Source: a virus. From it: a DNA stretch of 21,958 nucleotides. Where the stretch lies: positions 1-21,958 of IMG/VR virus record IMGVR_UViG_3300030520_000116, one strand, 5' to 3'. A program made the position numbers and the translations under genes. Below are positions 1-18,181 of this stretch, one piece after another. Under the pieces are notes generated by a model. That model was not told the origin of the DNA, ran no database searches, and saw nothing but the letters and a program-made list of their open reading frames with translations. The stretch's first letter is position 1. Each line of letters begins with the position of its first letter.

Positions 1-18
1 CAAGGTGACGGTCGCCAT
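1..18 (-). CDS. possible start of next phage gene, cut by window edge
   Basis: An ATG (18-16) lies five bases after the stop of the small membrane protein gene and opens a frame reading M-A-T-V-T-L to the left edge. The spacing fits the tight packing of this operon. In tailed phages the genes after the tail fibre are often lysis genes (endolysin, holin, spanin), but six codons give no support for any product. The upstream purine-rich stretch is only a weak ribosome binding site. Confidence 0.3.
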
Positions 19-23
19 CGCCG

Positions 24-323
24 TCACTCGCCGCCGGACAGGTGCCGCTCGATCTTGTCGAGCGTTTCATGGACGGCATCGAGCCGGTTCTCGATGACGG
101 CGAGGCGCCGGTCCGTCGCCTGATTCTGGCGCACCCAGCCGTCCAGCATGTCGAGCCGCGCTTCGGTCCGGCCGAACCAAAGGCCGGCGACCAGGACCTG
201 CAAGGCCAAGCTCCCGATCATGGCGACGGGAATACGCTTGTCGAGTAACCAGCCGCGCGGCGGCGGCGTATCGGAAACGGCATCGAGCGCCGCCTCCGGC
301 ACGGAGGGGTCGTAGGGGGACAT
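24..323 (-). CDS. small membrane-anchored coiled-coil protein, possibly lysis-related
   Basis: A 99-residue protein. The start at 323 is preferred over a longer upstream frame because GGAG lies seven bases before this ATG, and the longer frame would run through two hairpins. Residues 1-32 are a polar, proline-rich head. Residues about 33-53 form one hydrophobic segment (IPVAMIGSLALQVLVAGLWFG). The rest is a charged helix with heptad spacing (RRLAVIENRLDAVHETLDKI), likely a coiled coil. One membrane helix plus a coiled coil, placed directly after the tail fibre, resembles small proteins of phage lysis cassettes such as spanin-like or XhlA-like proteins. XhlA, however, has its coiled coil before the membrane helix. 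No family was recognised, so the lysis role is an inference from position and topology only. Confidence 0.7.
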   Translation of the reverse strand: MSPYDPSVPEAALDAVSDTPPPRGWLLDKRIPVAMIGSLALQVLVAGLWFGRTEARLDMLDGWVRQNQATDRRLAVIENRLDAVHETLDKIERHLSGGE

Positions 324-343
324 GGGCGATCTCCTGAAACGAA

Positions 344-378
344 GAAGACCGCGCTGCCGAGATCGGCAGGCGGTCTTC
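344..378 (-). terminator. long hairpin before small membrane protein gene
   Basis: The arms 344-352 (gaagaccgc) and 370-378 (gcggtcttc) pair perfectly. A second pair, 354-359 with 364-369, closes a four-base loop, so the stem has 15 pairs with one bulged base at 353. On the minus strand it is followed by TTCGTTTCA and then the GGAG ribosome site. The U-rich tract is weak, so it may be a terminator, an attenuator or an RNA-stability hairpin. Confidence 0.5.
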
Positions 379-390
379 CAGAAATGAAAC

Positions 391-410
391 GGCCGCCTCG
401 AGAGGCGGCC
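391..410 (-). terminator. perfect 8-bp GC hairpin after tail fibre gene
   Basis: ggccgcct (391-398) and aggcggcc (403-410) are perfect reverse complements around a four-base loop. Read on the minus strand the hairpin is followed by GTTTCATTTCT, a moderately U-rich run. It lies between the tail fibre stop and the next gene and is the better terminator candidate of the two hairpins here. Confidence 0.55.
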
Positions 411-454
411 GGGTTCGAGACTGATAAGCAAAGGGGCAGACCGGAACCGACCGG

Positions 455-526
455 CCCGACGAGCTACGCTCGCGGGTGCCCGACGAGCTACGCTCGCGGG
501 TGCCCGACGAGCTACGCTCGCGGGTG
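455..526. repeat. three perfect tandem 24-bp hairpin units
   Basis: The same 24-bp unit occurs at 455-478, 479-502 and 503-526 without a mismatch and ends two bases before the tail fibre stop codon (528-530). Within each unit cccg plus cgagc pairs with gctcg plus cggg around a TAC loop, with one bulged A. Each unit can therefore fold by itself into a 9-pair hairpin. No other copy was noticed in the window. It may be a REP-like repeat, a 3' RNA-protecting structure or part of a terminator cluster. Confidence 0.9.
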
Positions 527-527
527 A

Positions 528-3203
528 TCAGCCGGTCTTGACGTTGACCAGCGGGCGGCCATCGGCTCCGATCATCTCGATCGTACCAAGACTGTCGATA
601 TATTGGCCGAGGGTGAGATTACCCTTGGCGACCGCGCTGGCCGTGATGGTGCCGTCGGCGGCCGCACAGGGCACCAGATACTTGCCGATGTCGGCCGCCG
701 TCAGTCCGGCAATGTTGACGGGCACGACACCGCAAAGGGCGATGCGGTCCCACTTGACCCGCTCCGTCTCCAGCGCGGCATTGAAGGCCGTCAGGTTGGC
801 CTGATAGGTCGCCTCGGCGGCGACATAGGCGGTATAGGCCGCGAGCTGCTCGGTATAGGCGGTCTCGGCGGCGACATAGGCCTCGTAGGCCGCTTCCTGC
901 TCGTCGTAGGTGGCAAGGTCCGCCAGATAGGTCACGTAGGCGTTGGCCTGATCCGTCGTCGCGTCCGGCCCGGGGTCCGCCACGGCGGCGGGTGCGGTCG
1001 GCTGCACCACGGTCGTAGGGGCGGCGGGTTTGGCAACGGTCGCGGGCTGCTGATCCGGCGCCGTGACACCGTAAGCAGCGACAATCGCCGCCTCGGTCCC
1101 CCAAGTGTCGTTGCCGACGTAGCTCGGCAATGTCGACTTGGGCAGCACGCGGCCGACGACGTTGGCGAACACATTGGTCATCAGGCCCGTGGCGTCATAG
1201 CCCAACAACGCACCCTTGGCGACGGCACCATACAGCGACGGGATCACCTGGCGATATTCAGCGTAGTCCGCACCCGAGGCCGCATTCACACCAGCCGATC
1301 GGATCGAATAACCGGTAACGGCGTCCCTGTTGAATTTGGAAGCGGAATTTCCAGCATTCGCGCCGAGAGCACTGACACCATAGAAGACGGCCGAAATAAC
1401 ACCGCTTCCGCCAATAACATTAAGAATTGGGCTTCCAGCATCGTTCGTTACTGCTTTGGAGATTACGTGATTGCCGCCGCTCGTCGCGCCGACGAGCAGA
1501 TTGCCGCTGGTATCCAGCTCCATTACCGACGTGAAGGTAACGGTCCCGCCCGCGGTGCCGGATGGCGCACTCTGCCAAACATGCGTGCCGCCGACCTGCA
1601 AATATTTATTAGCGAAGCCGGTGCCCTGGTAAATATCGTTGGTGCCGTTGTAATAATGGTTAAAGCCGACGAGCGTGGCCGCATTATAGGATGCCAGCAC
1701 CGCTAGACTGCCGATCTGAAGAATCGAGGGCGCTGCGCCTCCCCAGTTGCTCGGGATGACGCCGATGCCCAGGCGCCCGTTGGTATCGAGCCGCATACGC
1801 TCAGATGTGCCATTGCTGACCGTAATCGGCATGCTGCTAGCGAGGCCAACGGTTCCGGAAGCAATCCCGTTGAAGGCCGACCCGGAATTATTTGCTGACA
1901 GAATGAAGTTGGAGCCACCGGACGAGTTCAGATTGAGAAACGCATTGCCCGTGCTTGTCGCATTGACCTGCATCCCATTGGTTGTATCGGTCGTGGCGCC
2001 AAGGGTGAATCTCGCAGCCGGAGTCGACGTGCCGATCAGGAAATTACCACCCGCATCGAACTCGGCAACTTGGGCACTGTTGATCGCAACATAAATCGGT
2101 TGCGCACTAGTAGAAGCCAAGGTGAGGCCGCCAACGCCGCCGGCTTGTAGCTGCGTTCCATTCGCCCGGTTGATACCGGTGGATGTGTAGTCGGCACCGT
2201 ATTGCACCAGAACGGTCGAGCTGGTGCCATTCGTCAAGACCAGAGCGGATGCCGCGGCAGTGCTGGAATTGCTGTTCAAGAGCGAGATTTCGGCATTACC
2301 GTTCAGGTTTTGCGTGATGTCCAACACGTTCGTAGGCGCCATACCAATACCAAGCCTGCCGCCTGACGCGAGCGACACGAAGCCTTGATTGTCCATCGAC
2401 ATTTTCTGGACGTAGTTCGTCCCCACGCCCCACGAGAATGCGGTGCCGCTGGTGACGGCGCTGGCGCAGTCCACGCCGTTCGGGCCTTCAACGAAGCCGC
2501 GCGAGGCGGAGAGGACGCCGTTGGTGGTGAAGCTGGCGCCGTTGACGCCGAGGTTCAGCACTTGGGCGGCGGCACTGGTGTTGCCGATTTGGAGGGCGGC
2601 GCGCGCCGATGTCCCGGCGGAGCCGTTCTGGATACGGGCACCATAGAGCGCGTTGTTGGTCGTGAACACGTCGAGCGCGTTGGCGGGCGCGGTCAGGCCC
2701 AGGCCCAGCATGGCCGGGACGCCGGCGGCCGTACCGACCGCGCGTAGGAACTCAGCCCCCTGGACCGCCAGCGCTGCGCTGCCGGTCGCCGGATGGAACA
2801 GGCCGGTCGAAGCCTCATTCAGGAAGGCGATGCCGGGCGTCGCCGCGGCACCATTGCCGAACAGGCCGGCGAGCGGCCCGTTGCTGTTCGCCTGGTATTG
2901 CGCCACAAGTGACGCCACCGAAGCCGCGATATTGGCGTTCAGATTGTTGGTGAAATTGCGGTCGATGGCATAGGCGACGTTCGACGCGGTCGTGCCGGCG
3001 AAGGCCCCGGAGCCGCCGACCGACAGCAGCGCCAGATGGGTGTCGTCGGTGATGGTATTGACCTCATACCAGTTCTCGCCGTCGACCGTGAAACGGTCGC
3101 CGGGATTGCACTGGCTGGTCCAGAAGGTGCCGGTGCCGACGACATTGACCGAGCCATTCGTCACCGCGACGGTGCCGACGCGATACCAATTGCCGATGCT
3201 CAT
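528..3203 (-). CDS. phage tail fibre with G2-like C-terminal domain
   Basis: An 891-residue protein that should form the receptor-contacting fibre at the tail tip. The start at 3203 is chosen because its ATG overlaps the stop of the upstream chaperone gene (ATGA) and AAGGA lies upstream. Residues 1-85 look like a common fibre attachment domain (VGTVAVTNGSVNVVGTGTFW). The middle is rich in Asn, Ser, Gly and Thr, with repeated LGIG-x-x-P motifs near residues 278 and 476, typical of trimeric beta fibres. From about residue 643 the motif SGADYAEYRQV, then VGRVLPKS and VGNDTWGT, then KWDRIALCGVVPVN, resemble the Peptidase_G2 (intramolecular chaperone) domain of phage tail proteins. A proline-rich and Ala/Tyr-rich repeat stretch (about 716-815) is inserted inside this domain. 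The middle of the gene is much less GC-rich than its ends, suggesting a swapped segment. Assignment as a fibre is firm; the G2 match was made by eye. Confidence 0.85.
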   Translation of the reverse strand: MSIGNWYRVGTVAVTNGSVNVVGTGTFWTSQCNPGDRFTVDGENWYEVNTITDDTHLALLSVGGSGAFAGTTASNVAYAIDRNFTNNLNANIAASVASLVAQYQANSNGPLAGLFGNGAAATPGIAFLNEASTGLFHPATGSAALAVQGAEFLRAVGTAAGVPAMLGLGLTAPANALDVFTTNNALYGARIQNGSAGTSARAALQIGNTSAAAQVLNLGVNGASFTTNGVLSASRGFVEGPNGVDCASAVTSGTAFSWGVGTNYVQKMSMDNQGFVSLASGGRLGIGMAPTNVLDITQNLNGNAEISLLNSNSSTAAASALVLTNGTSSTVLVQYGADYTSTGINRANGTQLQAGGVGGLTLASTSAQPIYVAINSAQVAEFDAGGNFLIGTSTPAARFTLGATTDTTNGMQVNATSTGNAFLNLNSSGGSNFILSANNSGSAFNGIASGTVGLASSMPITVSNGTSERMRLDTNGRLGIGVIPSNWGGAAPSILQIGSLAVLASYNAATLVGFNHYYNGTNDIYQGTGFANKYLQVGGTHVWQSAPSGTAGGTVTFTSVMELDTSGNLLVGATSGGNHVISKAVTNDAGSPILNVIGGSGVISAVFYGVSALGANAGNSASKFNRDAVTGYSIRSAGVNAASGADYAEYRQVIPSLYGAVAKGALLGYDATGLMTNVFANVVGRVLPKSTLPSYVGNDTWGTEAAIVAAYGVTAPDQQPATVAKPAAPTTVVQPTAPAAVADPGPDATTDQANAYVTYLADLATYDEQEAAYEAYVAAETAYTEQLAAYTAYVAAEATYQANLTAFNAALETERVKWDRIALCGVVPVNIAGLTAADIGKYLVPCAAADGTITASAVAKGNLTLGQYIDSLGTIEMIGADGRPLVNVKTG
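792..944 (-). repeat. 51-bp tandem repeats in tail fibre gene
   Basis: Two adjacent 51-bp units (792-842 and 843-893) encode 17-residue repeats of the form AAY-x-AYVAAE-x-x-Y-x-x-x-L. A third, more diverged unit (894-944) encodes AYVTYLADLATYDEQE. The repeats make an Ala/Tyr-rich helical segment inside the C-terminal domain. Slippage here could change the length of the segment. Confidence 0.7.
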
Positions 3204-3628
3204 GCTGGCAGATCCTTGGAACAGAGAATGTCGGGAATTGTGGGGAGATCGCACATGGCTTCGGCGCCGAGGCACGCCCGTAGCGCGTACCGATAGTCGG
3301 CTATCGACAGGCGCTGCTGGTCGCTAAGGCGCTGCCATCGGTCGGGCTCCATGAGATCGTCCGACGCCCGATAGCGCTCGCGCACCTGGCGCCGAAAGGC
3401 GTGGAATTCGGCTTCTGTCTGCGCCACCGCCATCGTGGCCGGATCGGCTGTTCGTTCACGAACCACCCCGTCGATCACCTGGATCGTGTCCGGATGATGA
3501 TGCAGATCCGCCGGTAGAATCGCGTGACCACCCGGCAGCAGATGGTGCGCAATGTCCCGCGCCTGCGAGCAGCTGTGTGTTTCGAGCACGCGGCCGGTCG
3601 CGATCTCGTAGATGACGAAGTGTTTCAT
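3200..3628 (-). CDS. tail fibre assembly chaperone-like protein
   Basis: A 142-residue protein. Its ATG overlaps the stop of the hub gene (ATGA at 3628-3625), and its own stop overlaps the tail fibre start in the same way, so it is probably translationally coupled to both. The C-terminal part carries the pattern W-x-x-L-S-x-x-x-x-x-x-x-x-x-YR-x-AL (DRWQRLSDQQRLSIADYRYA) followed by a proline pair. This is typical of small phage tail assembly chaperones encoded beside fibre genes. The N-terminal half (MKHFVIYEIATGRVLETHSC) looks like the beta-rich start seen in such proteins. It would help fold or attach the fibre encoded just downstream. The chaperone role rests on motif and position, and no partner specificity can be read from the sequence. 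Confidence 0.65.
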   Translation of the reverse strand: MKHFVIYEIATGRVLETHSCSQARDIAHHLLPGGHAILPADLHHHPDTIQVIDGVVRERTADPATMAVAQTEAEFHAFRRQVRERYRASDDLMEPDRWQRLSDQQRLSIADYRYALRACLGAEAMCDLPTIPDILCSKDLPA

Positions 3629-6600
3629 GCGGCACGGTTCTCCACGCAGGTGATCGTGTTGTTCTGGCAAAACAGATTGGCGCCGGTGACGCCGGTGCCG
3701 GAGGGCGGCGTGCCGCTGATCTGGAAGGCGTAGGTGTGGCTGCCGGCGGCCGGCGTGTCGTAGATGACGAAGGGCGGCTGCTGGAAAATGTCGTTCTGGT
3801 TGCGATCGACCATCGTCGAGGTCTGCGACCAGATCGTCGCGCCATCGCGGGTCAGTTGATAGGACAGCGTCCCTTGGCCCGTGACCGTAATGGCACTGCC
3901 CAGAACGACGGCGCTGATCGAGGCGCCGGGAACGATCTGGACGCGGTCGCCGATCGTCGAGAGCGTCGCCGAAACCAGCGTTGTCCAGCCGGCAGAAACG
4001 CCGATCGTCTGGTTGGCACCGGTCGCACTGACCGATCCGGAGATGGTGCCGGCGACGATCTGGGCAGATCCGACCGTGCTGACGCCCAGGCTGTTGGCGG
4101 CCATGATTTCCTTGCCGGTGCCGTCCCAGATCCAGCAACCCCAATCATTGCCGTAGCGGCCGATAATTGAGCGGATCGTGCCGCTGGTATCTTTTGTGAG
4201 GAAGTAGGGCCCATTGCCGTTGCCGTCGTCGGCGCCGTGCAGCAGCAGTTGGCCGTTGCCGATGAACAGATTGCCGGTATAGGTCGTGCTGGCCGAGATC
4301 ATGTCCGCCGTGATCGTGCCGATCACGGCCTTGGTCATCAGCACCTCGCCGCCGACCACTTCGAACGGCGAGACCGGGTTGATCGAGCCGTCGCCGTTGA
4401 CGGCGGCAACCAGGAAATCCCCCGCGGTCACCACGACCTGGCTGAGGCCGCCGGACCCGGACGCGAGGCCGATGCCGCTGATGTAGCGCGTGCCGCTGCC
4501 GGTCGCGACCGAGGTCTGCAGCGTATAGTTGGCCGAGGAGCCCGTCAGGCCGGCGATCACCGAACCCTGGCTGGTAATCGAGGCGCTGTTGGCCGCGACC
4601 TCCGCCTGCAGCGAGGTAATATTGGTGGCCGACGCGCTCGATTGGGTGGCGATGGCACTGACCGAGCTTTGCAGCGCCGCCAGACTGCCGGTGAAGCCGG
4701 CGGTCAGCGTTGTCAGTTCGCTGACCGCCGTGCTGGCGCTGCTGGCGGCCGCCGTGATCTGGCTTTCCAGGCCGGCGAGGTTGCCGCCATAGCCGGCAAT
4801 CAGACTGATCAACTGGGTGGCGGTCGTGCTGGCCGAGGTCGCGACCGTCGAGATCTCGGTCGAGAGCGTGGTGTAGTTGCCGTTGACCGTCGCCGACAGG
4901 CTGGTGATCGCGTCCGAGTTCGCCGTATCGCCGGTGACGCGTGCGCTCTGTTCGGTCGCGAGGCTGGCATTGATGCTGGTGCTGTTGGCCGTGACGGTCG
5001 CCGCCAGAGTGATGATCGATTGCGCATTGGCGGCATCGCCGGCGGCGCGCGCGCTCTGTTCGGTCGCGAGGCTCGCAGAATTGCTGGTGCTGTTGGCATT
5101 GACCGTCGCGGTCAGGTTGGCGATCAACGACGCGGTCGCCGCATCGGCCGTGGCGCGCGCCAGCGCCTCGGTCGTGATCGCGGCGGTATTGGTATTGACC
5201 TGGGTCGAGAGCGCCAAGCGCTGCGCCGCCTCGGCCAGGGCCTGGTTGTCTGAATGGGCCTGGAGCTGCTGGCGCGCCTGGGCGATGGCGCCGGTGAAGC
5301 TGAGCGCCTGGTTGGCCTGGTCGACCAGGGCCGCCAGGGTCGCCGCCCCGGCATCCTCGGCGCCGGGCACGGTGACCGAGGTGATGTTCTCTGTGATCTG
5401 GCCTTGCAAACTGTCGATCACCAGTTCCGCTGCGGTGAGCGCCGTCGACAGGTTGGTGAGATCGGTCTGGTTGGCCTTGAGCGCGATCTCGCCGGTCAGC
5501 GCATTCACGTCCGTGGTCAGCGTGGCGATCTGCACGCCCTGACCGGTGACCGTGGTTGCGGATGCCGCCTGAGTGACCGAGGCCTGCAGGCCGGAGATCG
5601 CGACCTGGGCGCTGGCGATCTGGCCCTGCATGCCCGAGAGCAGCAGCTGCTGCACCACGTTCTTGGAGACCTGGATCGACTGGATCTCGAAACTGTCGCC
5701 GGACGCGGTCGACAGCGCGAACTGCAGGCCGATGATGGTGCCCCCGATCCAGTCGGCATTGGCCGACAGGTCCCAGGCAAGCGTCTGGAAGCTGCCGAAC
5801 CCGGTCGGTACCGGCGTCGCCGCCTGGTTGGCCGACGAGAAGCCATGGGCACTCGTCGACCATTGCACCAAGCCCGACCAATCGGTGCCGGCATCCCTGC
5901 GGCGCACGACCATGACGACCTGGTTGTAGGTATTGCCGGCGATCGTGAGACCGGTCTTGGCCAGCAGCGGCGTGGTACCGGTCGAGAGCGTGGTGATCGA
6001 GGCGGCATTGACGGTCAGGCTGCCGCCGGTCATGACCCAGCTGACGGCCGAGTTCTGGAACAGGTCGTTGAGGATCGGCTGGTTACCGGCGATGACGGCG
6101 GCCAGCTGGTTGGTGACGGTGGCGGCGTCGGCCTTCAGCAGGATCGAGGCGTCGGCGGCGTTCAGCTGCGCCTGGACGCTGGTGATCAGCGTGTTGGTCG
6201 ATGTCACGACCTGGTTGATGGCGTTGTAGACCAGCGCGCCGGTCTTGGGGTTGATGACGAAGCCGGCCGACTGGAACGCGCTCGACAGCTGGCTCAGCTG
6301 CCCGGACAGCCAGAGCACGCCGGTCGCCGCCGCGTCGATCGCCGCCTTTACGTCGCTGTCGGCCTTCAGCGCCATGTCGCCGATGGTTTGGCCGGCCAGC
6401 TGGGCGACCTGGGCGACCGAGCCCGTGGTGCTGGCCGGCGCCGTGATCAGCGGGATCAGGGCGACCTCGGCCTGCAGCGCGGTCACCAGCTGGCTGTTGC
6501 TGATCGAGTTGGCCAAGATGCCGGACGGGTCGTAGCCGAGCGGCGTCGTGACCGTGACGCCGGCCGAGAAGGCACTTTCGTTGCCGGCCCGGCTGATCGC

Positions 6601-9102
6601 CGCGACCCAATAGGTCCAGATCGATCCTGCAGTAAAGCCGCCATGAAGGAATTGGGTCGCCGGTCCCTTGTAGAGCGTGGTCGCGGCCGAGATCACGGCG
6701 CCGGCGCCCTGGGCCGCCTTCAGCTCGTATTGCGAGACACTCGGGCTGGCGTCCGCCTGCCACAGCACGTTGACGTTCGGGTAGCTGGCCGCGGCCTGCA
6801 ACCCGGCCGGCACCGCGGGCGTCGTCGTGTCGTAGAGCACGGCGGCACTGGTGCCGGGTGTGGCATAGGCCGAGTAGGTCGGCGGCGTCAGGCCGGAGAT
6901 CGCCCGGACCTGGACATCATAGACCGCTCCCTCGACGGCCGGCGTCAGCGTCCAGGAGGTCGCCCCCTGGCCGATCTGGACGGAGATCCAGGGATTGGTG
7001 CCGCCCGTCGTGTGGATGCGGTAGTCCAGCTCATAGCCGGCGAGCAAAGGTCCAGGCGAGGCCGTCCAGGCCGCGATCAGGGTCGAGATCGCCGTGCCGT
7101 CCGCCGCCAGCCGATTGGCCGAACTGACGAGGAGGTTGGTCGGCGGCGCGATATAGCCGCCCTTGCCGGTCGGCACGTAGCTGTAGGCCGGCACGGTCGA
7201 GATATCTTCCTCGGCGGCGCCGTAGATATTGAGGCTGGTGAATTTCAGATAGAGGGTCTGCCCAATGTAGGCGGACGGCAGGTCGTACTCAAACAGGCTG
7301 CCGTCGAGCCGGGCGAAGGCCGAACCCGAGGCATGGGCCGCAACCGCGGTGCCGTAGAGACCACGGCGCAGATAGGAGAGCGCGTACTGGCCGACGCCGG
7401 TCAGCGTCGCCGTCTCATAGGCCATCAGCTCGCCGTCGACATAGATCAATGTACGATGGGCGTCGGCATCGGCCTGGGTGCCGGACAGCAAAGTGGCGCC
7501 CGGGCTCTCCGCGAGGCTCACCGACAGGGTCGAGCTCGTATCCGGATCGGCGACGGCGCCGATCGCGGAGGTCAGCACGCCCAGGCGTGCCGGCAGGCTG
7601 ATCTGGCCGATCCGCGTGTAGGTGGCGCCATCGACCGAGAGATGGACGTTGCAGCCACCCCAGTTGGCGCCGCCGGAAGCAGCGATCCAGACCTGGGGTG
7701 CCGACATCGCCAGGTCGGACGAGGGCTCGAAGATCACCGGATTGTTCACCGAGCCCGGCGCCACGTCGTAGTTGGTCGTGTAGGCCGTGCGCGCCTGCTT
7801 CGGATAGGCGGTCGCGGTCGCGATGCCGGCCGGGAATTCCTCGGCATTGATGGTGAGGTTGCCCTGGTCGTCTTCCTCGACCGAGGTGATGCGCACCGGC
7901 AGCTTGGCCATGCCGAGCCGGGCATCGCTCAAGGTGACGATGTCCATCGGCTCCAGCAGGCAATATTCCCAGCCGAGCGTGAATTGATAGCTGTTCCGGA
8001 TATAGACGGAGCGCTGCAGAATCAGCTGCGCCGAGATCGCGCCGACCGTGGGGTCGCAGATCTCGTGCGCGGTGATCTGGTCGGCCGGCAACGGGCCGTT
8101 CAGGTCGATCTGGGCCTGGTCCTTGGCCTCGATCGGGTCGGTCGCATATTGGTTCGACCGGTTCAGGATCTCGAGCTTGACCCAGTTCTTCGCGTCCGCA
8201 GTGTCCGTGCGGGTGACGATGACCGGGTCGGCGCTGCTGTCGCCGACATAGTCGTCGTCGTTCAGGTCGTAGACCGGCGTGACATCGGGGGTATAGCTGT
8301 GGCCGTTGGCGGTGATCGCGGTGTCGCCATAGGGCACGATCTTCATGAGATCGCCCGACCAGAAGGCGGTCGAATTGGTCAGCTGCAGCCAGCGGGTCAG
8401 CGTATCGCGGGCGGCTTCCTGATCGGTCAGGGCCGCCGACAGCCACAGGCCGGTCGCCTGGCAATAGGCCTGGTAGCTGGCCGGCCCGGTCTGCAACGCC
8501 ACCAGATCGATGTTCGCCGCCGGGAAGCCCAGGCCGTACTGAGGGTTGGTCAGGAAATCCAGGATCATCTGGGACGGATCGGCATCGTAGAGCGAGCCGA
8601 CACCGGTCTTCCAGAACGCGCCCTGCAGTTCGAAATTATGATTGGGCAGCCCCGCCGACGAGCCCAGGTCGTAGGGGGCGACCGCGACATAGGCGGTCGA
8701 CGGATAGGCCAGCGCCTGGCCCGGGTGATGGCTGGTGAGATAGCCCCAATCCGACTGGGTCGCCGTACCGTCGAACAGGCTCATGTTGAGCGCGGCCAGG
8801 GTCGTGATCGTCTTGTCGGCCCAGACATTGGCGACCGCCGTGATCGGCCCTTCGCACAGCGCCAGCACGACGGCGGCCTGATAGGTGTAGGTCGCACTGG
8901 ACGCGTTGCCGCCCTTGCCGCCCTGGTTCTGCTGATGCTTGATCGCGGCGAAATCGCCGTACCAGATCACGTTCGGCGCCAGCTTGGTCTGGCCATAGAC
9001 GATCGGAATGGCGAGGCCATTGGCCGAGGTCTGCAGCTGCAGGCCGGTATAGACCGGCTTCGCCTGAGCCTGCTTGGTGCCGCCACCGAGAATGCCAGCC
9101 AT
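3625..9102 (-). CDS. J-like tail tip hub / host specificity protein
   Basis: An 1825-residue protein, the largest gene here, expected to form the tail-tip hub and central fibre as lambda J and GTA gp15 do. The ATG at 9102 uses the last base of the NlpC/P60 stop codon. Residues 1-560 are the hub region (GLQLQTSANGLAIPIVYGQT near the start). Two fibronectin type III-like domains lie at about 655-760 and 768-865. A beta-rich segment at about 1014-1147 (WDLSANADWIGGTIIGLQFA) looks like a jelly-roll or carbohydrate-binding insert. Residues about 1290-1500 are Ala/Ser/Thr-rich coiled-coil repeats containing SLATEQSAR twice. A DUF1983-like stretch (FEVVGGEVLMTKAVIGTITA) follows, and the last 130 residues are beta-rich, probably the receptor-binding tip. 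No glycoside-hydrolase TIM barrel of the GTA type was recognised. Domain borders are estimates. Confidence 0.9.
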   Translation of the reverse strand: MAGILGGGTKQAQAKPVYTGLQLQTSANGLAIPIVYGQTKLAPNVIWYGDFAAIKHQQNQGGKGGNASSATYTYQAAVVLALCEGPITAVANVWADKTITTLAALNMSLFDGTATQSDWGYLTSHHPGQALAYPSTAYVAVAPYDLGSSAGLPNHNFELQGAFWKTGVGSLYDADPSQMILDFLTNPQYGLGFPAANIDLVALQTGPASYQAYCQATGLWLSAALTDQEAARDTLTRWLQLTNSTAFWSGDLMKIVPYGDTAITANGHSYTPDVTPVYDLNDDDYVGDSSADPVIVTRTDTADAKNWVKLEILNRSNQYATDPIEAKDQAQIDLNGPLPADQITAHEICDPTVGAISAQLILQRSVYIRNSYQFTLGWEYCLLEPMDIVTLSDARLGMAKLPVRITSVEEDDQGNLTINAEEFPAGIATATAYPKQARTAYTTNYDVAPGSVNNPVIFEPSSDLAMSAPQVWIAASGGANWGGCNVHLSVDGATYTRIGQISLPARLGVLTSAIGAVADPDTSSTLSVSLAESPGATLLSGTQADADAHRTLIYVDGELMAYETATLTGVGQYALSYLRRGLYGTAVAAHASGSAFARLDGSLFEYDLPSAYIGQTLYLKFTSLNIYGAAEEDISTVPAYSYVPTGKGGYIAPPTNLLVSSANRLAADGTAISTLIAAWTASPGPLLAGYELDYRIHTTGGTNPWISVQIGQGATSWTLTPAVEGAVYDVQVRAISGLTPPTYSAYATPGTSAAVLYDTTTPAVPAGLQAAASYPNVNVLWQADASPSVSQYELKAAQGAGAVISAATTLYKGPATQFLHGGFTAGSIWTYWVAAISRAGNESAFSAGVTVTTPLGYDPSGILANSISNSQLVTALQAEVALIPLITAPASTTGSVAQVAQLAGQTIGDMALKADSDVKAAIDAAATGVLWLSGQLSQLSSAFQSAGFVINPKTGALVYNAINQVVTSTNTLITSVQAQLNAADASILLKADAATVTNQLAAVIAGNQPILNDLFQNSAVSWVMTGGSLTVNAASITTLSTGTTPLLAKTGLTIAGNTYNQVVMVVRRRDAGTDWSGLVQWSTSAHGFSSANQAATPVPTGFGSFQTLAWDLSANADWIGGTIIGLQFALSTASGDSFEIQSIQVSKNVVQQLLLSGMQGQIASAQVAISGLQASVTQAASATTVTGQGVQIATLTTDVNALTGEIALKANQTDLTNLSTALTAAELVIDSLQGQITENITSVTVPGAEDAGAATLAALVDQANQALSFTGAIAQARQQLQAHSDNQALAEAAQRLALSTQVNTNTAAITTEALARATADAATASLIANLTATVNANSTSNSASLATEQSARAAGDAANAQSIITLAATVTANSTSINASLATEQSARVTGDTANSDAITSLSATVNGNYTTLSTEISTVATSASTTATQLISLIAGYGGNLAGLESQITAAASSASTAVSELTTLTAGFTGSLAALQSSVSAIATQSSASATNITSLQAEVAANSASITSQGSVIAGLTGSSANYTLQTSVATGSGTRYISGIGLASGSGGLSQVVVTAGDFLVAAVNGDGSINPVSPFEVVGGEVLMTKAVIGTITADMISASTTYTGNLFIGNGQLLLHGADDGNGNGPYFLTKDTSGTIRSIIGRYGNDWGCWIWDGTGKEIMAANSLGVSTVGSAQIVAGTISGSVSATGANQTIGVSAGWTTLVSATLSTIGDRVQIVPGASISAVVLGSAITVTGQGTLSYQLTRDGATIWSQTSTMVDRNQNDIFQQPPFVIYDTPAAGSHTYAFQISGTPPSGTGVTGANLFCQNNTITCVENRAA
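4943..5073 (-). repeat. 23-bp direct repeat pair in hub coiled coil
   Basis: The same 23 bases occur at 4943-4965 and 5051-5073, exactly 108 bp apart, in frame with a 36-residue protein repeat that includes SLATEQSAR. The surrounding codons are similar but diverged. The repeats are part of the fibre stalk and are a likely site for length change by recombination. Confidence 0.75.
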
Positions 9103-9539
9103 CAGTTATCCCACAAGCTGAAGAAACGGGGCGTACGCGAGGCAAGCGGTTCATCCCGGCGAGCATCGGCCAGCACGCAGCCGACGCGGGCCTGGGCGTG
9201 GATCACGCGCGGCCAGGCGATGACGAGCGCCGAATGGCTGAGCGTCCGGCCGAAACGATAGAGCGCAATGTCGCCGGGACCCGGCCGATCGACCTCGTGG
9301 GCGCGATCCAGCACGGTACCCAGATAGCGCTCCTCGCCGCGATGCAGGTGCCAGTCGGTCGGATAAGGCCGCGGATCGAACGCCGGCACCAGGCCGCTAT
9401 CGACGAAGACACGGACCAGGAACATGGCGCAATCGACGCCGGCGCCCTTCACGTCGCCCAGATGGTGATAGGGCGTGCCGAGCCATTCGAGCGCAGACGC
9501 GACGACGCGTCCACGCTGGACAGTTGCCAGATCGGTCAT
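9102..9539 (-). CDS. NlpC/P60 family tail-tip peptidase
   Basis: A 145-residue protein, the usual length for the peptidase encoded just before the hub gene (GTA gp14 type). Such proteins cleave peptidoglycan peptides, probably during DNA entry. The catalytic cysteine is C37 in GAGVDCAMFLV. The histidine is H102 in TLSHSALVI, and H114 in RVIHAQ is a candidate third polar residue. The segment RPGPGDIALYRFG is also typical of the fold. The ATG at 9539 has only a weak upstream AAGG, so coupling to DUF2163 (28 bases upstream) may matter. The stop overlaps the hub start by one base. No signal peptide is present, as expected for a structural tail protein. Confidence 0.88.
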   Translation of the reverse strand: MTDLATVQRGRVVASALEWLGTPYHHLGDVKGAGVDCAMFLVRVFVDSGLVPAFDPRPYPTDWHLHRGEERYLGTVLDRAHEVDRPGPGDIALYRFGRTLSHSALVIAWPRVIHAQARVGCVLADARRDEPLASRTPRFFSLWDN

Positions 9540-9567
9540 GATGCAATGAACCTTGGGCTAAGCCTGA

Positions 9568-10470
9568 TCAGTAGGCCGTCTCGGCCGCCGGCGTGTACGG
9601 GAAGCCTCGGAAGCGTCCAAGGTTGTTGAAGCGCGCGGTACAGGTCGCAGCCGTCTTGTCGCAGCCGGGCCAGATCATGAAGCTGTCGCCCGACGCCGGT
9701 GGCGCCTCCAGCGGATAGACCAGATCGAGCGCATGGGGCAGTGAGGCGTTGGCGCCCTTGATGGTGCGATAGAGACCGTCGTTGACGCCCGAGGTGAACA
9801 GGATCGTGCCTTGGGCGAAGATCGCCAGCCCCTCCGCATTGCCGGCGAGTGCCGCCGGCAGCGGTGGCGTGCCGGACGGCACCGGGATCGTGCCGTTGGT
9901 CGGTCCGGCCGCCACCGTCCAGCTCATCTGATAGGCGGCCTTGGTCAACCCGCAGCCGACGTCGAACAGACCGTGGATGCAGCCGGTCTGGTAGGTGTTC
10001 TTCGGCATCAGCGTGTCGAGCAGCAGCGGCATCGATTTGATCCGGACCTGCGCCTCGATCCGGCCGACCTGGTCGACGGTCGAGACGCGGCCGGCGAACA
10101 GCGGCACGACGCCGACAGGCGGCTGGTTCCAGGCCGTGTAGAAGGCCCGGCTGCGGCGCAGATAGCAGCCGTCGAGCACGCCGGTGCGCAACGCTTGGCC
10201 CCAGGGCACGCCATCCACGAGATCCGCCGGTCCATAGGCGAGCGTGATGGTCTGCTCGTCGACATCGAGCCCGACCGAAACCTTGTAGCGCATGCCATCG
10301 AACCGGACCTGATCGGCCCGGTAGAGCGTGCCGCCGACGGTGAGCGAGACGTCCTTGTCGGTGACGCTCAGCACCGTGCCGTCGGCGAGCGTGAAGCTGA
10401 ACAGATCGGCATAGAGATGCTGGTCATTGTCGGCCAGATAGGCGATCAGGGCGGAAGAGGCGGATTTCAT
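9568..10470 (-). CDS. DUF2163 tail protein (GTA gp13-like)
   Basis: A 300-residue protein. The start at 10470 (MKSASSALIAYL) is chosen because GGGAG lies upstream and because the longer frame begins in unrelated sequence. DUF2163 proteins form part of the distal tail hub in GTA-like siphoviruses and sit between DUF2460 and NlpC/P60. Recognisable features are the N-terminal DLFSFTLADGTVLSVTD, the cysteine cluster TGCIHGLFDVGCGL near the middle, and the C-terminal CTARFNNLGRFRGFPYTP, which corresponds to the conserved cysteine-containing ending of the family. Cysteines in these positions may bind iron-sulfur or metal in relatives, which cannot be shown here. The gene is separated from DUF2460 by the inserted metallopeptidase gene and a 192-base gap. 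Confidence 0.85.
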   Translation of the reverse strand: MKSASSALIAYLADNDQHLYADLFSFTLADGTVLSVTDKDVSLTVGGTLYRADQVRFDGMRYKVSVGLDVDEQTITLAYGPADLVDGVPWGQALRTGVLDGCYLRRSRAFYTAWNQPPVGVVPLFAGRVSTVDQVGRIEAQVRIKSMPLLLDTLMPKNTYQTGCIHGLFDVGCGLTKAAYQMSWTVAAGPTNGTIPVPSGTPPLPAALAGNAEGLAIFAQGTILFTSGVNDGLYRTIKGANASLPHALDLVYPLEAPPASGDSFMIWPGCDKTAATCTARFNNLGRFRGFPYTPAAETAY

Positions 10471-10662
10471 GCTGATCTCCCAGGAGAGCTTGACTGGTCC
10501 GAACCGGCCTTTTGAGACAACGATGCCGACCGCACGCGGCCTCATCCCGTCTTGAGCAATGGGCTATGGAGAGTCGTGGCCTTCAGGCCACGACATGTCG
10601 CCCGCAGCGGCGAACACGCCGTCGTTGTCCTGACCTGCCCTTTGGCGGGAAGGAGGCTTTCG
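10471..10662. other. noncoding gap between peptidase and DUF2163 with hairpin
   Basis: This 192-base gap is one of the longest inside the structural operon. It contains a perfect hairpin at 10573-10594 (gtcgtggcc paired with ggccacgac, four-base loop). Neither side of the hairpin has a clear U-tract. The rest holds only the DUF2163 ribosome site near 10475-10482. No open frame with convincing codon use was seen. It probably marks one edge of the insertion that brought in the metallopeptidase gene. Confidence 0.6.
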
Positions 10663-12138
10663 TCAGTTCGACGAAGACGGCTCCACCGCCGCGTCGCCCT
10701 GTTCGCCGCCCGGCTCACCGGCCCCGGCCAGCGCCCGCTTCCGGGCGGCCGCTCGTTGCGCCAGGGTGTCGCGCTTCATCTGGAAGGCGGTGCGCCGTCC
10801 GATCAGCGATGCCGGCTTGGCGGTGCCCTGGGCCACCAGATACTTCCCATAGCTTTCGGTCAGCGACAGGTCGATCTGTTCGGCATTCTCCAGCAGACCG
10901 ATCGCCCGTGGCACTCCGGCTTCGAGCGTCAACAGGTCGATGTCGAGAGCCACCTCCAGGGCAGCCGCCCGGGCCGCGAGCGACGGATGTGTGTCGGTCG
11001 GATGCGGTTGATGCGTCGCGGCAATGGCCGCGATGAGCGTTTGTCCCGGAACTGTCGCTATGAGCTGCCGACCGGCCCCGGAAAAGGCCCGACCGATGTT
11101 GTCGACCGGCTGACGTTGGTTGAGTGCGGCGATGCTGGACACCATGACCTGCTGCCAGGCCTGATCGGTTGCGGCGGACTTGGCCAGCGCGCCGACCATG
11201 GCCCGGCTGCTGGAGAGGCTAGCACCGATCCGATCCGCTTCGATCTCGCGGGTGCGGCCGATCGCCCGTTCGGCCCGGGCGAAGCGGGACAGAGTAAATC
11301 CCAGCACGGCCCGGGCCGGCAGCAGCGCCAGATTATGGCTTCTGCCACCCTGGTCGGTGGCTTCCAACGCCTGCATCAAGCCCTGATAGACCGGCTGGAA
11401 GCGCAGGCTGTAGGCCGTATCGGCCTGGAAGAAATGCGCGAGCTCGTGGCCGACGACCGCATTGAACTCGTCTTCGGAGACCAGTTCCATAAGCGACGCC
11501 GACAGATACATGGTTTCGCCGGTGAGTCGCTCCTTCGATCCGACTAGGCGAATTCCCGCCGCGGTGACAAAAAAATTGGGCAGCAGCCCGAGAACGACAT
11601 GGTCCGGCACCCGGGCACCAATCCGCGTCGCGACCGTTCGGACCCGATGCCAAAGTCGCGGCTGGTCCACCTCTGAGACTTCGACGCCAACGATCGGCGA
11701 TGCCGCGGGTCGCACCGCCCGGAACACCGACTGCACGATCTCCCAGGCGCCGTATAGGGCACCGCCCGCGACCGGCAGAATCAAGCCGATGCTGACGGCA
11801 TGAATCAGCACGATTTCCAGCAGCGCCACGCCGCAGACGACGATCGCCGCCTGGGCGAGGACCAGCAGCGCCAGGATCAGGGCGACGAAGCGCACGAGAT
11901 GGCGAAACACGACGACCAGTCGCTCCCGCCTTTCGCCGCATACCAACGCCGCGAGCCACACGGACAGGACGAGCCCGCAACCGGCCACCGCGGCGAGGAC
12001 CGAGACGCATGCCAGGATCAGGGCAATCCCGAACATACCGAGCTTGAAACCGAGCGCATAGGAGGCCGCAAGACCGAAGCCAGGAATACCGAACAATATC
12101 AACAGAAACGCAAAGGTACGGCGGAGATTCGCAAGCAT
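10663..12138 (-). CDS. membrane-bound M48 family zinc metallopeptidase
   Basis: A 491-residue protein with an N-terminal membrane domain and a cytoplasmic or periplasmic peptidase domain. Hydrophobic helices lie at about 9-30, 34-58, 84-110 and 112-130. The zinc site is VVGHELAHFF, with H231, E232 and H235 forming HExxH. The third ligand is E298 in TREIEADRIGA, as in HtpX/Ste24-type M48 enzymes. The last 60 residues are polar and probably disordered. The ATG at 12138 has AAGG upstream. M48 enzymes cleave membrane or periplasmic proteins, often in envelope quality control. Nothing in the tail machinery is known to need one. It interrupts the conserved DUF2460-DUF2163 order and is flanked by gaps of 76 and 192 bases while its neighbours overlap. 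It therefore looks like an accessory (moron) gene. The function in the prophage is unknown. Confidence 0.9.
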   Translation of the reverse strand: MLANLRRTFAFLLILFGIPGFGLAASYALGFKLGMFGIALILACVSVLAAVAGCGLVLSVWLAALVCGERRERLVVVFRHLVRFVALILALLVLAQAAIVVCGVALLEIVLIHAVSIGLILPVAGGALYGAWEIVQSVFRAVRPAASPIVGVEVSEVDQPRLWHRVRTVATRIGARVPDHVVLGLLPNFFVTAAGIRLVGSKERLTGETMYLSASLMELVSEDEFNAVVGHELAHFFQADTAYSLRFQPVYQGLMQALEATDQGGRSHNLALLPARAVLGFTLSRFARAERAIGRTREIEADRIGASLSSSRAMVGALAKSAATDQAWQQVMVSSIAALNQRQPVDNIGRAFSGAGRQLIATVPGQTLIAAIAATHQPHPTDTHPSLAARAAALEVALDIDLLTLEAGVPRAIGLLENAEQIDLSLTESYGKYLVAQGTAKPASLIGRRTAFQMKRDTLAQRAAARKRALAGAGEPGGEQGDAAVEPSSSN

Positions 12139-12214
12139 GAGCGGCCTTCATCGACAGATTGACGTCGCACGCTAGCACGGCAAATCCGCTCGCGACAGTT
12201 GAGAAGACACAGCA

Positions 12215-12808
12215 CTACACCTTCACACTGGTGAACTTGCAGCTCTTCAACAGCCACAGAGTGCTCGCCCAGTTCTCGTACTCGTGCACGTCGTCGAGGA
12301 ACCGGCAGACGAAATAGAATTCCAGGTTCAACACCTGGATCTGCGCGCCGGCGGCGGGTGCCGCGGCAAACGTCAGGACATTCGGCAGCGTGATGCCCCA
12401 GTTGGTGACGGTGGCTCCTGCGACAGTGACCGTCGGCTGATTGGCGGCCTGGCCGATCGGTTCGATCCAGCCGCCCAGGTCGCGGATCAGCGGGAATTGG
12501 GTCGTGATGCCGTCGCCGACGCCGATCACCTGGGATGCCACGAGATTGTCGGTCGGGTCCATGTAGAGAAAGCTGTCGAACTGGCCCTGGCGCTGCAGGA
12601 AGAAGCCCATCAGCTGCTGCAGTTCCTGATACGCCGTCGCCGCGCGCAGCACCTCGTAGGTCAGTTCGAACTCGTAGAGCGGATAGGCATAGTTCGCCGC
12701 CCGCACCTCACGGCCGGACGTGCGTTTGGAGATGCGCGTCGAGAAGGTCGGCCGCTTGAAGCTGGACCAGGCGAGGCTCGGCAGATTGGGAAAGATCGCC
12801 TGGCTCAT
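12215..12808 (-). CDS. DUF2460 tail protein (GTA gp12-like distal tail protein)
   Basis: A 197-residue protein whose ATG overlaps the stop of the tape measure gene (ATGA). The N-terminus FPNLPSLAWSSFKRPTFSTR and the segment ELTYEVLR, followed by LMGFFLQRQGQFDSFLYMDP, are characteristic of DUF2460, the distal tail protein of GTA-like and related siphoviruses. It forms a ring between tail tube and hub. Later residues include the beta-rich VGDGITTQFPL and the ending FLDDVHEYENWASTLWLLKS. Length and place after the tape measure match the family. The next expected gene, DUF2163, is displaced by the metallopeptidase gene. Confidence 0.88.
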   Translation of the reverse strand: MSQAIFPNLPSLAWSSFKRPTFSTRISKRTSGREVRAANYAYPLYEFELTYEVLRAATAYQELQQLMGFFLQRQGQFDSFLYMDPTDNLVASQVIGVGDGITTQFPLIRDLGGWIEPIGQAANQPTVTVAGATVTNWGITLPNVLTFAAAPAAGAQIQVLNLEFYFVCRFLDDVHEYENWASTLWLLKSCKFTSVKV

Positions 12809-13848
12809 GCGAGCGCTCCCTTGGACCCGAGCTTGCCGTTGCGGTGCCAGTTGCGGACGTTCTTGATGAAGATGTCCTGATGCTGCTGCAGCAACTGGTC
12901 GACCCCGGTCGCATCGATCGCCGAGACGGTCGGCGCGAACTGGAATTGCATGGTCGTGCCCTGGCCCCCTGCCCGCGCCTGCGGCTGTGCCAGCGACTGG
13001 CGCAGCGGCGAGGCGATCGAGGCCGGCAGCACCATTTCGTCCTTATGCAACTCGGTCAGCGCGCCGTCATAGGGCACCTGGTCCCAGCCGCCGGCGGCGG
13101 ACGCGAGCGTGGCGTAGGCCATGCCGTTGGCGTAGGTCGCGGCCGCCACCTCCGGTGCCATGCTCCAACCGATCAGCGGAATGGCCGCGACCGAGGCGCT
13201 GGCGGCGACCGCGGCAACCGCTGCCCAGGATGCGGCATTGCTGACGGCCGCCGCCTTGGTGTCCAGCAGGGCTGTGGCACTCGCCATGGCGTCCGCCGTC
13301 GTGCGCGCGGTGGTGCCGGCCGTGCTGGCCGCGGTCTTGCCAGTTTCCAGGCCCAGCCATTGCGCGATCGCCTCGCCGATCCGGCTGAACAGGCTGGAAT
13401 TTTCGCTATCGCCGATGGCATTGCGCGCAGCAGCGCCCGCCTGGGCGGCAGCAGTCTTGCTCCCCTCCGTGCCTTGCGTCAGCACCAGGCTTTTCAGCTG
13501 GCCGCTGGCCCAATCCTCCGGAACCTTCAGCGCCATATCGAGGAAGCGCTGCTCGATGCCGACCGCGATCTTGTCCATACCGGCCTTGAAGCTGGTCGTG
13601 CCGCGCAGCATGCCGCCGATGGTCGTGTTCATCGAGGTTTCGATACTCTTGGCCGTGCGATCCCAGGCCAGCGACGTGGCGCGGGCCGACTGATCCTGCG
13701 ACTTGCCGGCATTCGCGGCGCCGCTGCCCACCGTTTTCGCCATACTGGCGGCGAAATCGCCGACCAGCTTGCTCGCCTCGGCCAGCTTCTGTTCCAGATC
13801 GTCCAGATCCGCGCCGATCTGGACCGAGATCGCGAGATCGTCGGCCAT
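12805..13848 (-). CDS. short tail tape measure protein
   Basis: A 347-residue protein. The ribosome site AAAGGAGA lies well placed before the ATG at 13848. It starts with a helical segment (DLDDLEQKLAEASKLVGDFA), has an Ala-rich helical core with one hydrophobic stretch near 205-225 (AAVAAVAASASVAAIPLIGW), and carries GGWDQVPYDGALTELHKDEM. This last motif, continuing as VLPASIA, is common at the end of tape measure proteins in this phage group. Tape measures set tail length at roughly 1.5 angstrom per residue, so this one predicts a tail near 50 nm. That is short for a siphovirus and close to GTA tails. The gene lies at the expected place between the assembly chaperones and DUF2460. Confidence 0.75.
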   Translation of the reverse strand: MADDLAISVQIGADLDDLEQKLAEASKLVGDFAASMAKTVGSGAANAGKSQDQSARATSLAWDRTAKSIETSMNTTIGGMLRGTTSFKAGMDKIAVGIEQRFLDMALKVPEDWASGQLKSLVLTQGTEGSKTAAAQAGAAARNAIGDSENSSLFSRIGEAIAQWLGLETGKTAASTAGTTARTTADAMASATALLDTKAAAVSNAASWAAVAAVAASASVAAIPLIGWSMAPEVAAATYANGMAYATLASAAGGWDQVPYDGALTELHKDEMVLPASIASPLRQSLAQPQARAGGQGTTMQFQFAPTVSAIDATGVDQLLQQHQDIFIKNVRNWHRNGKLGSKGALA

Positions 13849-13860
13849 TCATGTCTCCTT

Positions 13861-14097
13861 TCAGCGGATCGGGCTGGCACCGAACAAGGCGATCAAGTCA
13901 CCCAAGTCCGCGGGCTCGGGCTCCGGTTTCGGGCCGACGCCCAGCCAGGCAGCGATCAGCAGGTGGGTCGGCGGATGCCGGGCCCAGTAGCGCTGCAGGG
14001 CGCGGTAGTGATGCAGGGTCATGGTCCGGGCGATCATGTCCCAGCTGCCGGCGCCGCACGCCACCAGCTCGGCCACAAGATCGTCCGGGTCGCTCAC
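13861..14097 (-). CDS. small tail assembly protein, second chaperone frame
   Basis: A 78-residue protein starting with GTG at 14097, inside the end of the preceding gene (GTGA overlap), in the -1 frame relative to it. It contains ARTMTLHHYRALQRYWARHP and an ending rich in Pro and Asp. Its position directly before the tape measure is that of the second tail assembly chaperone product (lambda GT or GTA-type small chaperones). The frame stays open upstream to 14451, so a -1 ribosomal frameshift could fuse it to the first chaperone. No classical slippery heptamer was found; a run of five G (14118-14114) is the only candidate. It may simply be made by translational coupling. No family was recognised with certainty. 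Confidence 0.65.
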   Translation of the reverse strand: MSDPDDLVAELVACGAGSWDMIARTMTLHHYRALQRYWARHPPTHLLIAAWLGVGPKPEPEPADLGDLIALFGASPIR

Positions 14098-14417
14098 GAC
14101 CCTGCCGCGGGCTCCCCCGGCGCGGGCTGCTCCGCCGGCATCAGCCCGGACGCCTGCAGCAGTGCCGGCAGCTGGGTGACGAGGCCGACCAGCTCCGAGC
14201 CCTTCAAGCGCTCCTCGATCGCGGCCTGGGTCAGCTCCGGGCGCACCCCGGCCAGAGCGGCCGCGACGATCTCGATCGAGGTCGAGGCCTGGTCGATCAG
14301 GTTGGTCCGGGTCGGCATGGCCTGGATCGCGGGCCAGGCGCGTTTCAAGGCGGCGAAGCACATGGCCGGCACGGCGACCGCCTCGCCGCCGATGGTCACG
14401 GTGACGCTCTGGTCCAT
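14094..14417 (-). CDS. tail assembly chaperone
   Basis: A 107-residue protein starting at 14417, six bases after the tail tube stop and with GGAG from the end of that gene as ribosome site. It begins with a short beta-rich part (SVTVTIGGEAVAVPAMCFAA), continues as a helical domain (IDQASTSIEIVAAALAGVRP, then ELVGLVTQLPALLQASGL), and ends in a Pro/Ala tail. Small proteins of this size between the tail tube and tape measure genes coat the tape measure before tube assembly. Assignment is by size, position and general composition. The downstream frame overlaps it by four bases. Confidence 0.65.
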   Translation of the reverse strand: MDQSVTVTIGGEAVAVPAMCFAALKRAWPAIQAMPTRTNLIDQASTSIEIVAAALAGVRPELTQAAIEERLKGSELVGLVTQLPALLQASGLMPAEQPAPGEPAAGS

Positions 14418-14422
14418 GGCGC

Positions 14423-15160
14423 CTACTCCGACAGGCTGAGGAAGCCGACATTGCCGGCCGGATCGCTCTGCGCCTGGAAATCCAGCTCGCTGATCGACCA
14501 ATCGTCCTGCTTGGTCGGGAAGCTGAGCTTGGAGGCGACGCAGGCGTTCAACTGCAGGGTCAGCTGCTTTCCGGCGTACTGCTCGCTGAAGGTCGCCTGG
14601 AACGTCGGCGTCAAGCCCATCAGCGGATTGCCGAGCGTGATGCGCGTGCCGGTCGTGCTGGTATATTCGTAGTTCAACAGCAGGGCGGCGCCCTCGTCCG
14701 CCGCAGCGAAGCTGTAGACCCCGCCGGTGGCGACCGCATATTGGCCCTGGGTCGGCGCGCTCGCGACCTTGGTCAGCGGCGCCCCGGTCTGGGCGTAGAA
14801 CACGCCGAGGTCGGTCGCGAAATTGGCGCCGTTCTGCGCCGTCACCTGAAACGGCGAGGACGCCGGCACCACCCCCGCCTCGCTCTGCGCCACCAGGCTC
14901 TGGCCCGTGGTCAGCGTCTGGCCGAAGAACAGGTTGTTGAAGATGGCGCCGTTGATCTGGGCGAACTTGGCCTTGCCCTCGATCTTGGCCTTGCCGCGGG
15001 CCAGCGCCAGGGCGAACTGGCCCTGGCCGTAAAGCTCCTTCAGGTCGCCCGAGAAATCGAGCTGCACGTCCTGCAGGGCACCGAACTTGGTCGGCGTGGC
15101 GTTGGCGATGTCGGTGCGCAGCGCATAGAGCGCGCCGCCGCCGAAGGCGAACTGGGGCAT
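14423..15160 (-). CDS. major tail tube protein
   Basis: A 245-residue beta-rich protein beginning MPQFAFGGGALYALRTDIAN. Features typical of tail tube subunits are the early VQLDFSGDLKELYGQGQFAL, the Lys/Gly segment GKAKIEGKAKFAQINGAIFN, and the C-terminal half around TPTFQATFSEQYAGKQLTLQ that completes the tube beta barrel. It stacks as rings to form the tail tube through which DNA passes. The upstream gene ends 21 bases away at 15182 and the next gene begins six bases downstream. The ribosome site (AAAGAGAA) is modest for a protein needed in many copies. No immunoglobulin-like decoration domain was noticed. Confidence 0.82.
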   Translation of the reverse strand: MPQFAFGGGALYALRTDIANATPTKFGALQDVQLDFSGDLKELYGQGQFALALARGKAKIEGKAKFAQINGAIFNNLFFGQTLTTGQSLVAQSEAGVVPASSPFQVTAQNGANFATDLGVFYAQTGAPLTKVASAPTQGQYAVATGGVYSFAAADEGAALLLNYEYTSTTGTRITLGNPLMGLTPTFQATFSEQYAGKQLTLQLNACVASKLSFPTKQDDWSISELDFQAQSDPAGNVGFLSLSE

Positions 15161-15181
15161 CGGTTTCTCTTTTGGGGGAAT

Positions 15182-15613
15182 TCAGGGAACGAGGATTTCG
15201 ACGGGCAGGATGGCGACGGCCTGATCGCCCAGCAGGCCCTCGTCGCTTTCGATCCGGCCGGCGATCCAGGCATGCTCGACCAACCCGCCCAGGGTCTGGG
15301 TGACCTGGCCCGGATCGGGCGCGAGCGCCGCCTCGATCGCATCGATCAGCGGGTTCATGACTTGGCTGGGGGCGACGGTCGGGTCGGCTGCGGTATTGAC
15401 ATAGACGAACAGCTCGACCGACAGGCGGCGGGCCGGCGGCAAGCCGTCCTTGCGGGTCCAGCTTTCGCCCTTCTGCACCTGGAACAACGCTGGCTGCTCG
15501 GCCGGCGTCACGTCGGCCCAGTGTTTCAGCCGGCGGCTGGAGGTGGTGAAACCGGGGATCGCGGCCAGCCGCTGGAACAGCGCCGCCTGGATCGTCTCGC
15601 GCGCCGCACTCAT
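15182..15613 (-). CDS. DUF3168 tail terminator/completion protein
   Basis: A 143-residue protein. Its ATG at 15613 overlaps the stop of the gp10-like gene (ATGA). It starts with an amphipathic helix (ARETIQAALFQRLAAIPGFT) and contains RRLSVELFVYVNTAADPT and NPLIDAIEAALAPD. These match the helix-strand pattern of DUF3168 and gpU-like proteins that cap the tail and end tube growth. The place between the gp10-like gene and the tail tube gene is the standard one for this role in HK97-type modules. The last 25 residues (LLGDQAVAILPVEILVP) form the final strand. Confidence 0.75.
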   Translation of the reverse strand: MSAARETIQAALFQRLAAIPGFTTSSRRLKHWADVTPAEQPALFQVQKGESWTRKDGLPPARRLSVELFVYVNTAADPTVAPSQVMNPLIDAIEAALAPDPGQVTQTLGGLVEHAWIAGRIESDEGLLGDQAVAILPVEILVP

Positions 15614-16577: not shown

Positions 16578-16591
16578 GGCTATCCCCTTCG

Positions 16592-16626: not shown

Positions 16627-16633
16627 GCCGCCG

Positions 16634-18109: not shown

Positions 18110-18125
18110 CGGGCGTTTCCTCAAT

Positions 18126-18150: not shown

Positions 18151-18181
18151 CGGACGAGCGGGGATGTCGGGAGGCGAGCGG

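Follow-up and report, generated by a model that had tools for sequence, protein, structure and literature searches.

A tandem hairpin array just past a prophage fibre stop codon probably derives from a REP-like repeat of the bacterial host lineage

The described repeats that come closest to the locus studied here are the tagged REPs, for which Di Nocera et al. (2013; PMC3733652) give an unpaired GTAG or CGTC end as the defining feature. With regard to function, E. coli REPs located <16 nt downstream of a stop codon are reported to reduce translation and to cause ribosome stalling (PMC12306157, citing Liang et al. 2015). Here we describe a virus record of 21,958 bases (the window, that is, the whole stretch of DNA that was analysed) in which three identical hairpins stand directly behind the stop codon of a fibre-like gene. 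We consider it fairly probable that this array is a REP-like hairpin of the bacterial host lineage that inserted immediately after the stop of a prophage fibre gene and subsequently expanded to three copies. In Pseudomonas, mobile elements tend toward REP-free regions (PMC3390384), which makes it slightly unexpected to meet a REP-like array in a prophage.

Tandem Repeats Finder, run on the window, reported a repeat at 454-526 with a period of 24, 3.0 copies and 100% matches, and a direct-repeat search agreed with it on the 24-base array. Repeat finding and folding together bear out what the sequence-only reading had described, namely three identical tandem 24-bp units that each form a 9-pair hairpin, and its count of five hairpins in about 180 bases also stands (the three units plus 390-411 and 343-379, all within 343-526). 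That reading had placed the array two bases from the stop codon, but the distance is one base (527), the stop codon being 528-530. On the minus strand, the fibre gene ends in its TGA (530-528) and is followed by one base, the array (526-455), about 43 bases, the hairpins at 411-390 and then 379-343, and the next gene from 323 (Table 1); three bases separate the stop codon from the first array stem. The array unit reads, on the minus strand, CA followed by CCCGCGAGC-GTA-GCTCG-T-CGGG, and folds with four pairs in the lower stem and five in the upper, the two being separated by a bulged T on the 3' side, and with a loop of three bases. A single unit on the gene strand has 9 pairs and one bulged base at -14.6 kcal/mol (z -2.9; equalled by 3 of 200 shuffles), and on the opposite strand 10 pairs at -15.5 kcal/mol (equalled by none of 200). 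Folded as RNA, the whole array (440-535, minus strand) reaches -64.2 kcal/mol (z -5.15, 0/200 shuffles), and as DNA its fold has a z of -3.92 (0/200 shuffles). The 22-base hairpin core has three matches in the window at ≤3 mismatches versus 0 in 100 shuffles. Rfam models at the gathering score gave 0 matches in the window, and the exact 22-mer had no match elsewhere (0 in viral contigs, 0 in the genome contigs searched). No phage DNA similarity was found for positions 1-3300, and no similarity to plasmids for the whole window.

Table 1. Features at the end of the fibre-like gene (positions in the window)
Feature	Position	Strand	Remarks
Tandem array, three identical 24-bp units	455-478, 479-502, 503-526	minus	hairpins at 455-476, 479-500, 503-524
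TGA stop codon of fibre gene	528-530	minus	with the following bases reads TGATCACCCGCGAGC; also in both relatives
Fibre-like gene, 891 aa	528-3203	minus	label from gene position and the sequence-only reading
Terminator-like hairpin	390-411	minus	ancestral; same place in related prophage
Second strong hairpin	343-379	minus	ancestral; same place in related prophage, pairing-preserving exchange
Next gene, 99 aa	24-323	minus	90% identical in related prophage

Neither a Pfam family for the fibre-like gene nor useful relatives of this gene and of the next gene in viral contigs were found. The history of the locus can be read from related prophages in bacterial genomes. Three genome loci encode a relative of the window tail-tip protein, and one of them is close: L038, on a contig of a Rhodospirillales MAG (genome G001), whose tail-tip protein is 77% identical in its best segment and whose DNA identity with the window takes in most of positions 6-19,093. 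At this locus, a homologous fibre gene ends in the same way and with the same stop, the next gene is shared, and both distal hairpins are present; the 390-411 hairpin keeps its place and stem, and in the second distal hairpin a T-A to C-G exchange leaves the pairing intact. The three array units, however, are missing between its conserved fibre end and next gene. A decayed prophage copy in a second genome (G002), which the search tool puts in the same genus as G001, retains the fibre end, the TGA stop and the start of the next gene with a hairpin and a T-run between them, and it too has no array repeat. As two loci are without the array and one is with it, gain in the window is the simpler history, though not a proven one, and we infer gain rather than loss in both relatives. 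Because the relatives have the stop codon and lack the array, the hairpin need not have supplied the fibre stop. On this comparison, the five hairpins are of two kinds, the array units being variable and the two distal hairpins being kept in the related prophage, so that what looked like one cluster would split into conserved, phage-owned hairpins and a variable, moved-in repeat of bacterial type.

Several other features of these prophages were noted. In the decayed copy (L137; G002:C7:295000-314000), large pieces are gone between window-like segments, and the next gene is split into two parts that lie about 4.3 kb apart on opposite strands. Window positions 10472-12221 (about 1,750 bases) are absent from L038, where the tail genes continue without a gap; a gene with a Peptidase_M48 match, a cargo gene within the tail module, occupies 10663-12138. 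Within the tail-tip gene, a 108-bp repeat is present in 2.7 copies at 73% match (4869-5160). At the far end of the window, an AAA_14/DUF4143 ATPase gene (19854-21017, in the region 19813-21017) has a near-perfect palindrome, CATCCTTGCATTTA...TAAATGCAAGGATG, over its start, which is perhaps an operator.

The hairpin recurs in the bacterium that holds the closest relative. In a sample of 385 genomes drawn from the class of G001 (the genome holding L038), the strict core CCGCGAGCNNNGCTCGTCGG occurs in one genome only, G001, at six places; the reversed-pattern control gave 0 matches in G001 and one match each in two other genomes. With 3 mismatches allowed, the 22-mer has five identical places in G001, and the G001 copies differ from the window 22-mer at 3 or more positions. 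Wider patterns found other places only at 3 mismatches, namely 4 places in 3 of 39 genomes of the family sample and 1 place in 1 of 43 genomes of the order sample. A loose pattern with ≤2 mismatches gave 25 real versus 26 reversed matches in G001, control matches to the wider patterns turned up in many genomes of the family sample, and loose-pattern matches beyond G001 were not used as evidence because the control matches were about as many. An outer palindrome (GACATGAGGCC...GGCCTCATGTC or a variant of it) encloses five of the six core places in its loop and bears a sister form of the hairpin at its foot. Two such hairpins are part of a 101-base element with 22 matches in G001, the single one of 39 family genomes that was matched at E≤1e-5. 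Altogether, about 24 hairpins of the window architecture were found in G001, mostly nested in a palindromic repeat of about 100 bp; this copy number is low for a REP, and no listed ORF spans any of the matches, the list holding codon-biased ORFs only. At six of 22 G001 loci (L098, L099, L101, L116, L117, L118), the stop of a codon-biased ORF lies ≤3 bases from the matched edge. The hairpin family is absent from the same-genus genome G002 in pattern, element and model searches (model R1, described below; 0 at E≤0.01); completeness is stated for neither G001 nor G002. In the viral contigs of the collection, the core has 11 single matches, none of them tandem and none with the window flanks when 60 bases on each side were viewed, and these were taken as chance or coding matches and set aside as family members. 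It was also seen at many G001 loci (e.g., L098, L101, L109, L117) that nested palindromes are modular, with smaller hairpins set in the loop or foot of an outer palindrome of about 60 bases. Judged by these matches, the array core belongs to a repeat that is dispersed in the genome of the closest phage relative's host and restricted to that lineage. The family is seen only in the host of a relative, and the window's own host presumably carries it as well.

Fifteen different 22-mers (nine of form B, five of form A and the window unit) align gap-free; 129 of the 135 cells are paired, and every row has the bulged T. Two-sided changes occur at four of the nine pairs. When the 3' letters were shuffled, none of 500 trials reached the observed pairing and covariation score, 25 had at least as many two-sided pairs and 400 at least as many pair types; these values are to be read with the fact that the rows were chosen by patterns fixing much of the outer stem and that the G001 copies are kin to each other. 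The inner pairs 8-14 and 9-13, which were free in the form-B pattern, show two-sided changes in 5 of the 15 rows, and between the window and form A the only two-sided change is at pair 1-22. The model built from these 22-mers (R1) has 33 matches in G001 at E≤1 and 25 at E≤0.01, and in G002 it has 11 and 0, respectively. Twenty-one of the 25 lie at loci from which the model was built. The four new ones comprise two adjacent matches on C124, whose starts are 23 bases apart, one at C80:216169, and one on C35 that was set aside since it resembles coding sequence. Each window unit scores 33 bits, partly by construction because the window unit is itself a row of the model, the independent result being the strict-core pattern search. 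Among viral contigs, 33 distant tail-tip relatives were found, and in the 18 that were searched with the model (L005-L022) the best score was 19.2 bits versus 33 bits for the window units. The window unit fits the G001 family in its 22-base hairpin with 4 + 5 pairs, 3-base loop, bulged T at position 18, and core CGCGA...TCGTCG. Architecture alone was rejected as a family signature: in 800,000 bases of G001, with overlapping registers counted, a 3' bulged T is not favoured (90 T, 71 A, 120 C, 106 G), and hairpins 18-30 bases apart that share their bulged base number 5 for T, 6 for A, 8 for C and 10 for G. The family therefore rests on sequence together with structure. Short tandem hairpins of other sequence also stand at gene ends in G001, at L199 17086-17140 and L203 14426-14475 with 23 and 24 bases per unit, respectively, and they are not claimed as family since the bulge-bearing architecture alone is not enriched.

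The placement behind a stop codon is repeated in G001. The match at C80:216169 opens a tandem array of 23 bases × 6.1 copies directly behind the stop of mlaC (identified by a Pfam MlaC match), whose 3' end reads TGA TCA GCCGCGACC...; the array is followed by a terminator-like hairpin, and by eye its later units lose part of the lower stem. At L052, a single unit lies at a TGATCA behind a 202-aa ORF and adjoins a hairpin with a T-run. The fibre gene, mlaC and the L052 ORF have TGATCA[C/G]CCGCGA in common, with the same stop register and the same hairpin orientation.

We propose that a REP-like hairpin of the bacterial host lineage would have inserted directly behind the fibre stop codon, upstream of the phage's own older intergenic hairpins; that this single hairpin would have become three identical copies, most simply, we infer, by replication slippage; and that the array would be transcribed with the fibre gene as hairpins. 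Because just three bases lie between stop and stem, the E. coli REP rule would predict reduced fibre output. The effect of the array would be passive or mildly regulatory. By analogy with that rule, a mild attenuation of fibre synthesis by the array is plausible, and the array may perhaps protect the upstream mRNA as well. If it is true that such arrays change translation, a bacterial repeat would set the dose of a phage fibre protein.

An alternative is that the array, whatever its origin, is a selected, phage-borne RNA device kept for tuning of the fibre dose or for protection of the transcript. Its very stable fold (z -5.15) and its exact register behind the stop, a geometry shared with mlaC and the L052 ORF in G001, would suit such a device. 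Against it, both relatives lack the array despite conserved flanks, the three copies, being identical, offer no compensatory change, and most occurrences of the hairpin are outside phages, in G001; we regard this alternative as unlikely. The sequence-only reading had held that a phage-specific role would be unlikely if the unit were an abundant genome-wide repeat, and this is largely the situation in G001, the host of the closest relative. Since the unit core is an interspersed repeat in the bacterium holding that relative, a phage-specific role for the array is unlikely.

That reading had also suggested strong termination of transcription, and GC-rich hairpins behind the last structural gene and ahead of a small gene are indeed where a terminator of the structural operon might be expected. 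However, none of the array units (455-526) has a T-run directly after its stem, the sole match in a terminator search is the separate hairpin at 390-411 (shuffles average 0.5 such matches over the same stretch), which is kept in the relative, and the relatives have a hairpin, or a hairpin and T-run, at this place without the array. It is therefore very improbable that the array is itself the terminator. That the threefold repeat is an assembly artefact, as the identity of all three copies might suggest, we hold to be equally far from probable, if not further: the separately assembled G001 has a comparable, imperfect array of about six units, and the window array, at 72 bp, fits within the length of one ordinary short read. 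A recombination hot spot for exchange of fibre modules, which repeats at the end of a mosaic fibre gene with a middle unlike that of the relative might bring to mind, is extremely unlikely, because the divergence from L038 sits within the gene (27% identity over residues 276-640 and 36% over 721-805) and identity is high on both sides of the array (87% over the final 86 residues of the fibre and 90% for the next gene).

Insertion of a host-lineage hairpin followed by multiplication thus remains the explanation that we prefer. A much broader generalization, for which we would claim little probability, is that one Rhodospirillales lineage has an untagged family of palindromic elements that would settle at TGATCA stops and in the loops and feet of palindromes, move without a Y1 transposase, and form arrays which lower translation of the upstream gene, prophage genes included.

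With respect to known systems, searches of the literature found no account of tandem stop-codon hairpin palindromes in Alphaproteobacteria, and nothing beyond PMC3733652 on intergenic palindromic hairpin repeats in Rhodospirillales, neither of which is proof of absence in print. By eye, no unpaired GTAG, CGTC, TGTC or CCTC end was found at the window or G001 form A hairpins. The window hairpins have CA on either side, and form A has (G)ATCA on one side and A on the other; CGTC is confined to the 3' arm of the hairpin, where it is mostly paired. The Y1 transposase (RAYT, PF01797) gave 0 matches in the draft G001, the control genomes being positive in 5 of 14. Because neither a tag end nor, in the draft, a Y1 transposase was found, we regard the hairpin as a REP-like variant and not as a REP member. 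The roughly 100-bp repeat of G001 resembles MITE-like or ERIC-like composites in being interspersed and built of nested inverted repeats; the window differs in having the small inner hairpin only, without outer arms. Like E. coli REPs near stops, as far as PMC12306157 describes them, the hairpin lies within 15 nt of the stop codon, a likeness of placement across bacterial classes. Compared with tagged REPs in the account drawn from PMC3733652, the array shares the size of a 20-40 bp palindrome (here a 22-base hairpin in a 24-base unit), an intergenic position mostly behind genes with predicted transcription as a hairpin, two-sided stem changes between units, and an occasional place inside other palindromes; it differs in lacking an unpaired GTAG or CGTC end and in its 3-base loop, constant bulged T and low copy number. 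With the CGTC REPs, which according to the same source are typical of Alphaproteobacteria and have no dedicated transposase, it has in common that none was found in the draft G001, and unlike them it is arranged head-to-tail in tandem, such dimers being called negligible there. What the present locus adds to these systems is an untagged hairpin family, restricted to one lineage, which is set within other palindromes and is repeated behind stop codons.
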